From positions 1 to 35,208 of the forward strand of contig JANWXE010000167.1 in the NCBI GenBank assembly GCA_025055385.1: a DNA stretch of 35,208 nucleotides, read 5' to 3'. Under the pieces are notes generated by a model that did not search any database, was not told where the DNA came from, and saw only the letters and a list, made by a program, of their open reading frames with translations. Each line of letters begins with the position of its first letter. The stretch's first letter is position 1. Made by a program: the position numbers and the translations under genes. Source of the DNA: Burkholderiaceae bacterium (lineage in GTDB: Bacteria; Pseudomonadota; Gammaproteobacteria; Burkholderiales; Burkholderiaceae_F). Positions 1,503-29,380 of this stretch are shown here, piece by piece.

Positions 1503-1865
1503 TCAGAACCGGATCCGTCCGGTCAGCATATCCTTGTACATCACCCAGTCGCCGAAAAAGCTAAACAGCGGCTGGCGGAATGAGGCCGGGCGGTTTTTTT
1601 CGAAGGCAAAGTGGCCGACCCATGCGAACCCATAGCCAGCCACGATGCCGGCGAGTAGCCACCATGGATTGCCGCTTGCGATCAACAGCGCTAGGCAAAC
1701 GAGCGCGAGCGTAGAGCCGAGGAAATGCAAGCGCCGGCAGATTGGATTGCGGTGTTCGCTCAAGTAAAAGGGGTAGAACTCGCGAAACGTTCTGTAGCGC
1801 GGCGGATTTGTCTCGATTGTGGTTTTGCTGTCCATCGGTTCCGTCTCCTCGTTGCGGTGGCGCAA
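1503..1865 (-). CDS. DUF962 / Mpo1-like membrane protein
   Basis: YRTFREFYPFYLSEHRNPICRRLHFLGSTL...GYGFAWVGHFAFEKNRPASFRQPLFSFFGDWVMYKDML matches the DUF962 pattern. The start may be the internal Met (MDSKTT). Confidence 0.9.
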   Translation of the reverse strand: MRHRNEETEPMDSKTTIETNPPRYRTFREFYPFYLSEHRNPICRRLHFLGSTLALVCLALLIASGNPWWLLAGIVAGYGFAWVGHFAFEKNRPASFRQPLFSFFGDWVMYKDMLTGRIRF

Positions 1866-1958
1866 ATCTACGCCGCAGACGGTGCGTGATTCAAGGGACG
1901 CCAGCAGTTGGCTGTCTGCCCACCCGACGGCGTTGTGCGCGCCTGTCCCTTGCCGTCC

Positions 1959-26026: not shown

Positions 26027-27547
26027 ATGTGTGGAATCGTGGGTGTCGTGGGGACTTCCCCGGTTAATCAGCTTTTGTACGACGCGCTGCAGTTGCTGCA
26101 GCACCGGGGCCAGGATGCCGCTGGAATTGCTACCGCTCATGGCAACACCTTTCACATGTTTAAGGGCAATGGCTTGGCGCGGGATGTTTTCCGCACGCGC
26201 AACATGCGGGCGCTGCCGGGTAACTCCGGCATCGCGCAGGTGCGCTATCCCACGGCGGGTTCGGCCTCTAATCCGGAAGAAGCGCAGCCGTTTTACGTCA
26301 ATGCTCCATTTGGCATCACGCTTGCGCATAACGGCAATCTGACCAATTGGGAACGTCTGAAAGACGAGCTATTTCGCATTGACCGGCGCCATATCAACAC
26401 AAACTCTGATTCGGAAGTGTTGCTGAACGTGCTGGCGCATGAGTTGCAGCTGGCCAGCGAAGGCTTGGTTCTAGATCCACATACCATTTTCCGCGCGGTG
26501 GCGGGTATGCACCGCCGGGTCAGAGGCTCGTACGCCATCGTGGCGCAGATCGCCGGCTATGGGCTGCTGGGCTGCCGTGACCCGTACGGTATCCGTCCCC
26601 TATGTTTCGGGGTCCACGAGACGGAGGCCGGCACCGAGTACATGATCGCCTCCGAGTCGGTGGCTTTAGAAGGGCTGGGTTTCCGCTTTGTGCGCGACGT
26701 CGCACCTGGCGAGGCAATCTTTATCGATTTAGACGGGCGCTTCTACAGCCAGCAGTGCGCAGAAAACCCAAGTCTTAACCCCTGCTTGTTCGAGTATGTT
26801 TATCTGGCACGGCCGGATTCCGTCATCGATGGCGTTTCCGTCTACGGTGCGCGGCTCAGGCTGGGTGAATATCTAGCCGAACAGGTACGAGCGGCCGTTC
26901 CGCTGGGCGACATCGACGTCGTTATGCCGATACCGGATTCCAGCCGGCCGGCGGCGCTGCAACTGGCCACTCGTCTGGGGCTGCCCTACCGGGAGGGGTT
27001 CATCAAGAACCGCTACATCGGCCGTACCTTCATCATGCCAGGCCAGGCTGTGCGCAAAAAATCGGTACGGCAGAAACTGAATACCGTGGGGGTGGAATTC
27101 AAGGGCAAGAGCGTGTTGCTAGTGGACGACTCGATCGTGCGGGGGACGACCATCCGCGAGATTGTTCAAATGGCGCGTGACGCCGGCGCAGTGAAGGTGA
27201 TGGTGGCATCCAGCGCGCCGCCGGTGCGTTATCCGAACGTTTACGGCATCGACATGCCAACGCGTGCCGAGCTGATTGCTGCTCGCCGCAGCGAGGAAGA
27301 AATCCGCCGCGAGATTGGCGCGGATGCGCTGATCTATCAGCGGCTGGAGGATCTGCGGCAGGCAGTGCGCGACTGCAATCCAGCGCTCACCAACTTTGAA
27401 GCCTCTTGCTTCGACGGCCACTACATTACAGGGGACGTCACACCAGAATACCTGGACCGCATCGAGCGGGCGCGCATGCAGCCAAGACCGGCCGAGGACG
27501 TGGCCCGCAACCAGCTCTCGCTAGCGATCGAACCTATCGATGCGTAA
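26027..27547 (+). CDS. purF: amidophosphoribosyltransferase
   Basis: MCGIVGVVGTSPVNQLLYDALQLLQHRGQDAAGIAT (N-terminal nucleophile Cys) and VLLVDDSIVRGTTIREIVQMARDAGA (PRPP site). Confidence 0.98.
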   Translation: MCGIVGVVGTSPVNQLLYDALQLLQHRGQDAAGIATAHGNTFHMFKGNGLARDVFRTRNMRALPGNSGIAQVRYPTAGSASNPEEAQPFYVNAPFGITLAHNGNLTNWERLKDELFRIDRRHINTNSDSEVLLNVLAHELQLASEGLVLDPHTIFRAVAGMHRRVRGSYAIVAQIAGYGLLGCRDPYGIRPLCFGVHETEAGTEYMIASESVALEGLGFRFVRDVAPGEAIFIDLDGRFYSQQCAENPSLNPCLFEYVYLARPDSVIDGVSVYGARLRLGEYLAEQVRAAVPLGDIDVVMPIPDSSRPAALQLATRLGLPYREGFIKNRYIGRTFIMPGQAVRKKSVRQKLNTVGVEFKGKSVLLVDDSIVRGTTIREIVQMARDAGAVKVMVASSAPPVRYPNVYGIDMPTRAELIAARRSEEEIRREIGADALIYQRLEDLRQAVRDCNPALTNFEASCFDGHYITGDVTPEYLDRIERARMQPRPAEDVARNQLSLAIEPIDA

Positions 27548-27557
27548 GCGGCCTTGC

Positions 27558-27586
27558 TTGTCGCTTGGGCTTAGCTGGCCTAAAAT
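27558..27586 (+). promoter_or_regulatory. putative sigma70 promoter for the metZ leader
   Basis: TTGTCG (27558-27563), 17-bp spacer, TAAAAT (27581-27586). Predicted start lands just before the SAM-II-like element. Confidence 0.6.
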
Positions 27587-27594
27587 GCAGAGAA

Positions 27595-27650
27595 TGCGCC
27601 GATTTGATCTCAGCTTGCGGGCGCGTAACAAATGCGGCTAAAGCGAGCGA
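27595..27650 (+). ncRNA. SAM-II-like riboswitch aptamer upstream of metZ
   Basis: TGCGCCGATTTGATCTCAGCTTGCGGGCGCGTAACAAATGCGGCTAAAGCGAG aligns almost colinearly with a SAM-II aptamer recalled from memory (CGCGCUGAUUUAACCGUAUUGCAAGCGCGUGAUAAAUGUAGCUAAAAAGGG). H-type pseudoknot possible: GCGCC (27596-27600)/GGCGC (27620-27624) and GCTTGC (27613-27618)/GCGAGC (27643-27648). Confidence 0.85.
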
Positions 27651-27659
27651 GGTAACCAG

Positions 27660-27690
27660 ACCCGCTTGGCTTGTGCCGGCGGGTTTTTTT
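27660..27690 (+). terminator. intrinsic terminator between the SAM-II-like aptamer and the metZ ATG
   Basis: ACCCGC tt GGC ttgt GCC g GCGGGT followed by a T7 run that ends at the base before ATG 27691. Confidence 0.85.
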
Positions 27691-28902
27691 ATGGCTCAGT
27701 CACTTGAAAAACCGCGTCTTGAAACATGTGCGGTGCGCGCGGGCACCGCACGCTCGCCGTTTGCCGAGCACAGCGAGGCGCTTTTTCTGACTTCCAGCTT
27801 CGTGTTTGATAGCGCGGCGCAGGCTGCGGCCCGCTTCGCCGGCGACGAGGACGGGTTCGTTTATTCACGCTTCAGCAATCCGACCGTGCGCATGTTCGAG
27901 CAGCGCCTGGCCGCGTTAGAAGGTGCGGAGGACTGCCTGGCGACGGCATCCGGCATGTCGGCGCTGCTTGCTGTCTGTCTGGCGACTTTGCGAGCGGGCG
28001 ATCATGTCCTATGCGGTGCCAACGTCTTTGGGGCTACCGTACAGCTGTTCGCTCAAGTGCTGCAGCGCTTTGGCATCCAGACTACCTTCGTGGCGAGCGC
28101 CGATCCGCAGGCTTGGCGGACGTCGGCTACCGATCGCACGCGCCTGATGTTTTGTGAAACGCCGTCGAACCCGCTGATGGAGATTACCGATCTACAGGCA
28201 TTTGCTGCTCTCGGCCGAGAGCTGGGCGCGGTAACGGTAGTTGACAATTGCTTCTGCACGCCGGTGTTACAGCGGCCACTGCAGTTCGGCGTCGACGTGG
28301 TGATCCATTCAGCGACCAAATATCTCGATGGGCAGGGCCGCGTGCTCGGTGGCGCCGTGCTCGGCAGACGCGCGTTCGTGCGTGAGGCCCTTCTTCCGGT
28401 GTTGCGCACCGCAGGTCCAAGCCTCTCCCCGTTTAACGCCTGGGTCCTACTAAAAGGATTGGAGACGCTGCCATTGCGCATGCGCGCGCAATCTGAAGCG
28501 GCACAGCAGCTAGCCACTTGGCTAGCGCAGCGTCCAGAGGTTGAGCGCGTGTACTTTCCAGGCTTGCCGTCGCATCCGCAGTACGCACTGGCACAGCGGC
28601 AGCAAGCGGCACCCGGCGCGGTGCTTTCTTTTTGCTTAAAAGCCGATAGTGAGGCTCAGGCACGGGCGCGCGCTTGGCGGCTGATCGACCGTGTGCGGCT
28701 GATGTCGATCACCGCCAATTTGGGCGACACGCGGACGACGATCACGCATCCTGCAACGACCACTCATGGTCGGCTCAGCGCGGAGGCGCGTGCGCGGGCC
28801 GGCATCGGCGAGGGACTGGTGCGGATCGCCGTCGGACTGGAAGCGGTGGAAGACCTGCAGCGCGACCTGGAGCAGGCGCTTGCGGCCTGCACCAGCTGCT
28901 GA
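27691..28902 (+). CDS. metZ: O-succinylhomoserine sulfhydrylase
   Basis: MAQSLEKPRLETCAVRAGTARSPFAEHSEALFLTSSFVFDSAAQAAARFAGDEDGFVYSRFSNPTVRMFEQRLAALEG; PLP site VVIHSATKYLDGQGRVLGG. The ORF-track start at 27406 is inside purF; true start taken at ATG 27691. Confidence 0.95.
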   Translation: MAQSLEKPRLETCAVRAGTARSPFAEHSEALFLTSSFVFDSAAQAAARFAGDEDGFVYSRFSNPTVRMFEQRLAALEGAEDCLATASGMSALLAVCLATLRAGDHVLCGANVFGATVQLFAQVLQRFGIQTTFVASADPQAWRTSATDRTRLMFCETPSNPLMEITDLQAFAALGRELGAVTVVDNCFCTPVLQRPLQFGVDVVIHSATKYLDGQGRVLGGAVLGRRAFVREALLPVLRTAGPSLSPFNAWVLLKGLETLPLRMRAQSEAAQQLATWLAQRPEVERVYFPGLPSHPQYALAQRQQAAPGAVLSFCLKADSEAQARARAWRLIDRVRLMSITANLGDTRTTITHPATTTHGRLSAEARARAGIGEGLVRIAVGLEAVEDLQRDLEQALAACTSC

Positions 28903-29304: not shown

Positions 29305-29380
29305 TGGCTCCCCGACCTGGACTCGAACCAGGGACCTGCGGATTAACAGTCCGTCGCTCTACCGACTGAGCTATCGGGGA
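29305..29380 (-). tRNA. tRNA-Asn (GTT), CCA encoded
   Basis: Reverse complement TCCCCGATAGCTCAGTCGGTAGAGCGACGGACTGTTAATCCGCAGGTCCCTGGTTCGAGTCCAGGTCGGGGAGCCA folds as a cloverleaf: acceptor TCCCCGA/TCGGGGA, GGTTCGAGTCC T arm, anticodon GTT. Confidence 0.97.

Follow-up and report, generated by a model that had tools for sequence, protein, structure and literature searches.

The window, by which we mean the entire 35,208-nucleotide stretch of DNA analysed here, carries on its plus strand purF followed by metZ, whose product is identified as O-succinylhomoserine sulfhydrylase (NF006003, scoring 643.7 bits where the cut-off is 522; ATG at 27691-27693). The two genes and the leader between them show the following features:

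26027-27547 (+): purF, the upstream neighbour (gene annotation)
27558-27586 (+): sigma-70-like promoter, TTGTCG-17-TAAAAT, with 9 of 12 consensus matches
27586-27662 (+): RF00521 match (33.2 bits, E=3.1e-6; gathering score 36)
27596-27600 (+): P1 5' strand, GCGCC, partner 27620-27624 (P1 covariation)
27601-27606 (+): conserved L1 GATTTG, of the SAM pocket in known SAM-II (RF00521 alignment; sequence)
27609-27618 (+): P2 5' strand, CUC(A)GCUUGC, partner 27637-27647 (pairing in the window fold)
27617-27621 (+): GCGGG, taken as the antiterminator strand in the sequence-only reading (sequence)
27620-27624 (+): P1 3' strand, GGCGC (P1 covariation)
27637-27647 (+): P2 3' strand, GCUAAAGCGAG, with the conserved GCUAAA (RF00521 alignment)
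27641-27653 (+): predicted antiterminator 5' strand, AAGCGAGCGAGGU, of which 7 nt are common to the P2 3' strand (folding, permutation)
27660-27672 (+): predicted antiterminator 3' strand, ACCCGCUUGGCUU, equal to the terminator 5' arm and loop (folding, permutation)
27659-27690 (+): intrinsic terminator hairpin and U7 tract (sequence, folding, conservation)
27691-28902 (+): metZ, O-succinylhomoserine sulfhydrylase (NF006003)

The promoter predicts a transcription start at about 27593, just 5' of P1, and a counterpart with at least 8 of 12 consensus matches occupies the equivalent place in 89% of 138 beta-proteobacterial leaders, compared with 7% of shuffles. At the other end of the leader, the terminator hairpin (27659-27684, -17.4 kcal/mol) runs into a T7 tract (27684-27690) that ends at the base before the metZ ATG, just as a previous reading of this DNA from the sequence only had described; the positions which that reading gave for GATTTG, the helices, GCGGG, CCCGC and the terminator are all right. 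Such a terminator is present 3' of 118 of the 138 canonical beta aptamers. Weak Rfam matches to Trp_leader, sX11, BcKCsr2 and similar families are terminator look-alikes that score far below their thresholds. In the window (27684-27693), and in about 26 of the 138 relatives, the U-tract runs straight or nearly straight into the start codon (GGGTTTTTTTATG), an arrangement that leaves the gene without an ordinary ribosome-binding site. Downstream of metZ lies a tRNA gene on the minus strand (29308-29380, 69.8 bits), the anticodon of which reads GUU (Asn).

The SAM-II aptamer and its distribution

The Rfam scan of the window at the gathering cut-off recovered no SAM-II match, and hence we used an E-value scan. 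This gave a plus-strand match of RF00521 (SAM_alpha) to 27586-27662, scoring 33.2 bits (E=3.1e-6 over 191 nt; E=8.4e-6 in the genome-wide scan). The SAM-II core occupies 27596-27647 and includes AGCTTGCGGGCGC at 27612-27624 and AAATGCGGCTAAAGC at 27630-27644. In the RF00521 alignment the pocket blocks GAUUUG, CUUGC and GCUAAA are intact in the window, and they are seen across both the alpha-type and the beta leaders. The 103-nt window leader also folds better than its shuffles (z -2.6).

The fold is supported by P1, at least 4 of the 5 pairs of which are formed in 216 of the 218 alpha and beta aptamers, with many compensatory changes. Within the beta leaders these include GCGCC/GGCGC, GTGCC/GGCAC and GTCGCC/GGCGAC, and a sixth pair varies between C-G, U-G, A-U, G-C and U-A; CGTGG/CCACG is a compensatory variant separating beta from alpha-type sequences, and GCGTC/GACGC was seen as well. 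P2 shows invariant GC/GC pairs, and its strands pair well in the window; the next pair outward is formed in 62% of cases as against 48% in the shuffled set. A permutation test of the whole of P2 also scored, but so did its reversed control, and it was therefore set aside as evidence. Beyond the invariant GC pairs, P2 is weakly supported by our own tests and rests mainly on the known structure of the family. The earlier suggestion of a SAM-II-like core before metZ is thus upheld by a significant Infernal E-value, by the covariation of P1 and by the intact pocket blocks, although the score of 33.2 bits stays under the gathering score of 36.

This shortfall is best judged against the relatives. 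RF00521 elements occur in 33 of 101 near genomes and in 184 of the 399 genomes of the order, 69 of which have a match above the gathering score; the remaining 115 positive genomes have none, and the Rfam SAM_alpha threshold in effect hides many of the beta members. Across the phylum the element was found in 79 of 399 genomes, the highest scores falling in another class and being alpha-proteobacteria-like by sequence. MetZ leaders of the same family as the window reach the threshold (L008, 36.5 bits; L010, 36.0 bits), such that the window element belongs to a continuum and its lower score can be judged a threshold effect rather than the lack of a structural feature. It is, in short, an ordinary member of the SAM-II class. 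In the leaders that were read, the downstream gene is mostly metZ; the relatives with the core upstream of this gene include Pandoraea, Ferriphaselus, Derxia, Sulfuriferula, Burkholderia and Paraburkholderia, and many metZ genes of Dechloromonas and Accumulibacter show no match to the core pattern within 450 nt.

Several variants were encountered among the relatives. A second, divergent SAM-II core lies 3' of the first terminator in L005/L152, L006, L030, L033, L037, L066, L079, L093, L113 and L139; in most of them, the terminator scan detected no terminator 3' of the second core. L004 (1501-1640) and L007 (minus strand) have SAM-II cores with AGCGTTCGT...ACGAACGCT in place of a terminator; that of L004 precedes an ORF of 332 aa, for which an assignment as DUF1852/MesX is unsupported (no Pfam match). 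A further subgroup (L045, L098, L099, L103, L114 and L117) has aptamers of the form ATTTGC(C/T)TGATC(C/T)GCTTGCGGGCGC, after which no good terminator was found, L045 having a weak hairpin only.

The predicted switching pairing

The arm that would build the terminator is complementary to the end of the aptamer itself. The P2 3' strand and the tail that follows it are predicted to form with this arm a hairpin at 27641-27672 (-12.8 kcal/mol), which begins with the pair U27653-A27660, continues with G-C/C-G pairs at 27652/27661, 27651/27662, 27649/27663, 27648/27664 and 27647/27665, and closes inward with A-U at 27646/27666, G-U at 27645/27667 and the pairs 27644/27669, 27643/27670, 27642/27671 and 27641/27672, leaving A27650 and G27668 as bulges. 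With P1 enforced, 27590-27676 folds most stably into this antiterminator (-27.6 kcal/mol), as does the transcript extended through 27690 (27590-27690, -35.2 kcal/mol). Across 91 leaders, the native combinations of P2 3' strand plus tail with terminator 5' arm average -11.62 kcal/mol against -10.45 for permuted ones (z -5.75), and 0 of 5000 shuffles were as good as the native partners, a count to be read as an inexact probability because the leaders are related by shared ancestry. The corresponding controls were null (reversed, z -0.3; complemented, z -1.05; 3' arm, z +1.3), and a like permutation of the P2 3' strand against the arm in 37 alpha-type leaders gave z -3.9 with 0 of 2000, subject to the same reservation. 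Partition-function folds of transcripts ending at the terminator 5' arm, computed for 118 leaders, show the tail that follows GCUAAA as the main partner of the arm in 86. Seven bases (27641-27647) are common to the antiterminator and P2, and it is this sharing that gives the switch: the antiterminator excludes both the aptamer and the terminator, and has evolutionary support.

For the window, the unforced fold of the partial transcript decisively favours neither of the two candidate partners of the arm, and the unconstrained full leader prefers a local hairpin at 27607-27653 together with the terminator (-41.8 kcal/mol). The nearest-neighbour model of RNAfold places the pseudoknot, ligand, magnesium and co-transcriptional kinetics outside its scope, and this apparent default state may be an in silico artefact only.

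We consider it highly likely that the element is a SAM-II riboswitch controlling metZ by transcription attenuation, with the P2 3' strand supplying the antiterminator. A promoter between purF and metZ would give rise to a leader RNA beginning just 5' of P1, and P1 (27596-27600/27620-27624) would presumably fold first. In the SAM-free leader, the terminator 5' arm (27660-27672) would be taken up by pairing with the P2 3' strand and tail (27641-27653), so that the terminator would not form and metZ would be transcribed. With SAM, the P2 3' strand (27637-27647) would be held in the pseudoknot with 27609-27618, and the arm thereby freed would fold into the terminator (27659-27690), ending transcription roughly where the leader meets the metZ ATG, one base ahead of it. 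The computed support for this comprises the homology of the aptamer, the covariation of P1, the conservation of promoter and terminator, and the co-variation of tail and arm. Both the putative SAM-II identity and the proposed attenuation are well supported from sequence comparison, by the RF00521 match, the relatives passing its threshold, the P1 covariation and the upstream promoter; the ligand that is sensed before transcription is stopped would very probably be S-adenosylmethionine.

The sequence-only reading had arrived at the same mutually exclusive off-switch logic, which our results support, but had assigned the antiterminator to GCGGG (27617-27621) pairing with CCCGC (27661-27665). The complementarity itself is conserved: of 63 SAM-II terminators, 59 (94%) carry CCCG within the opening 6 nt of their 5' arm, as against 6 of 65 control hairpins (9%, a rough figure since the controls, drawn from 1.2 Mb of stretches, are partly intragenic), and the aptamer CGGG is near-invariant among the leaders. 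However, conservation of CCCG in the arm alone does not identify its partner, and is largely explained by the tail pairing, in which CG pairs with the GCG after GCUAAA and CC with the GG of the tail. Of the covariation anticipated among the leaders of relatives, that of P1 was found but that of GCGGG/CCCGC was not (permutation z +0.7), the aptamer CGGG varying too little to give a signal; where it is altered, in L030, L125 and L145, the change is uncompensated and the terminator keeps CCCG. When forced, this pairing yields -21.7 kcal/mol over 27590-27676, 5.9 weaker than the P2 3'-strand antiterminator, and -32.7 versus -35.2 kcal/mol over 27590-27690, and the arm pairs mainly with GGG and the P1 3' strand in just 5 of the 118 partial-transcript folds. 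We therefore regard GCGGG as an unlikely antiterminator, though it may act as a second or kinetic partner of the terminator arm.

A separate motif, CAAGC or AAGCTGA, often appears in the terminator loop or 3' arm (L001, L034, L040, L048 and others) and is complementary to the P2 5' strand; CAAGC is found in 27% of SAM-II terminators versus 1.5% of controls and is absent from the window terminator. Several leaders, L001 among them, have GCAAGCTGA in the terminator 3' arm, and this arm may pair with the P2 5' strand, but the energies showed no significant difference.

Control exerted mainly on translation, with the terminator hairpin or P2 hiding the start region and termination secondary, would accord with the position of GGCGGG (the terminator 3' arm) and U7 right beside the metZ ATG in the window, with about 26 of the 138 leaders in which no more than a few bases part the U-tract from an ATG, and with the translation-acting SAM-II riboswitch known at metA (PMC9373788). 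Against this, a textbook terminator with its U-tract is kept 3' of 118 of the 138 aptamers even as its distance from the ATG varies widely, and we hold a chiefly translational role to be quite improbable. A constitutive terminator, for instance of purF, standing beside a decayed aptamer would fit the sub-threshold score, but is very hard to reconcile with the intact core blocks, the element's own promoter, the fit between terminator arm and aptamer tail and a same-genus leader (L009) that is nearly identical in core and switch. The notion of a SAM-II fold with a different ligand has a precedent in the ligand-changed variants of SAM-I (PMC10853860), with none found in the literature for SAM-II, and is scarcely credible given that GAUUUG, CUUGC and GCUAAA all fit the SAM-II consensus ahead of a methionine biosynthesis gene.

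Relation to metXZ, RF02424 and known SAM-II riboswitches

The attenuating SAM-II reading bears on two records that have been kept apart from SAM-II in the literature. The first is the novel beta-proteobacterial metXZ RNA of Leyn et al. (2014; PMC4239095), with a pseudoknot and a terminator/antiterminator, which that paper treats as distinct from SAM_alpha, listing no SAM_alpha in beta-proteobacteria. As given there, its genes, its taxonomic group and its conserved-block pseudoknot followed by a terminator are all as in the window element, and its proposed antiterminator partners are the GC-rich regions 3 and 4; from locus, gene, group and architecture we infer that it is very probably SAM-II. 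The second is Bp2_Cand287, a Burkholderia sRNA detected by RT-PCR upstream of metX/metZ (2012; PMC3521395). The corresponding family, RF02424 (Bp2_287), covers the same locus with a model that is the reverse complement of a SAM-II leader and terminator. It matches the window on the minus strand (27565-27689, 25.9 bits, short of its gathering score of 70) and Burkholderia sp. TSV86 with 161.6 bits, again on the minus strand, over the metZ SAM-II leader. The plus strand of that leader reads GATTTG...CTTGCGGACGC...GCTAAAGCG and scores only 13.3 bits with RF00521. L346 has an RF02424 match at 1732-1908 (minus strand), and among the 34 matches listed in relatives most lie opposite a SAM-II match. 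Together with the TSV86 score, this leads us to read RF02424 as the antisense of the SAM-II element, with the family appearing to be set on the wrong DNA strand. RF00521 misses the Burkholderia form, in which an additional small hairpin (GGGGCGACCCG) stands between P1 and GCUAAA.

We thus think it likely that both the beta 'metXZ' RNA and the 'sRNA' RF02424 represent SAM-II riboswitches, some with an additional hairpin that hides them from Rfam, and that GCUAAA and its tail serve in them as the antiterminator to a complementary terminator 5' arm. As far as we searched, the very probable identity of metXZ with SAM-II and the antisense nature of RF02424 are new; no paper joining SAM-II, metXZ and Bp2_287 was found in the open-licence literature, and earlier recognition is possible. 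The type of element is already known, and what is corrected is its switching pairing and its annotation. Besides joining these records, the reading offers a concrete pairing by which the SAM-II expression platform could switch and would explain a probable control of homocysteine synthesis by SAM in a large beta-proteobacterial group.

The 2005 description of SAM-II already placed terminators downstream of many members (PMC1273637), and their occurrence in alpha- and beta-proteobacteria was reported in 2007 (PMC2258182). These known representatives likewise combine P1 and an H-type pseudoknot with a promoter 5' of P1, a terminator 3' of P2 and a methionine gene, the window element differing as a beta sequence variant that scores 33.2 bits, below the 36 of RF00521. 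The tandem SAM-II riboswitches, reported in 44 examples with mixed terminator and ribosome-binding-site platforms (PMC9481103), have a first aptamer and terminator as in the window; about 10 of the relatives are tandem, whereas the window has a single aptamer. The closest parallel is the metZ SAM-II riboswitch of Sinorhizobium meliloti (2022; PMC9373788), in which the gene and the order of parts are the same and high SAM brings more of the terminated leader RNA (RZ) and less read-through mRNA, with promoter activity also falling. S. meliloti is an alpha-proteobacterium, and the alpha-type P1 and P2 sequences differ from those of the window, the partner of the terminator arm in alpha-type leaders being a P2 3' strand of the GGCCGG type.
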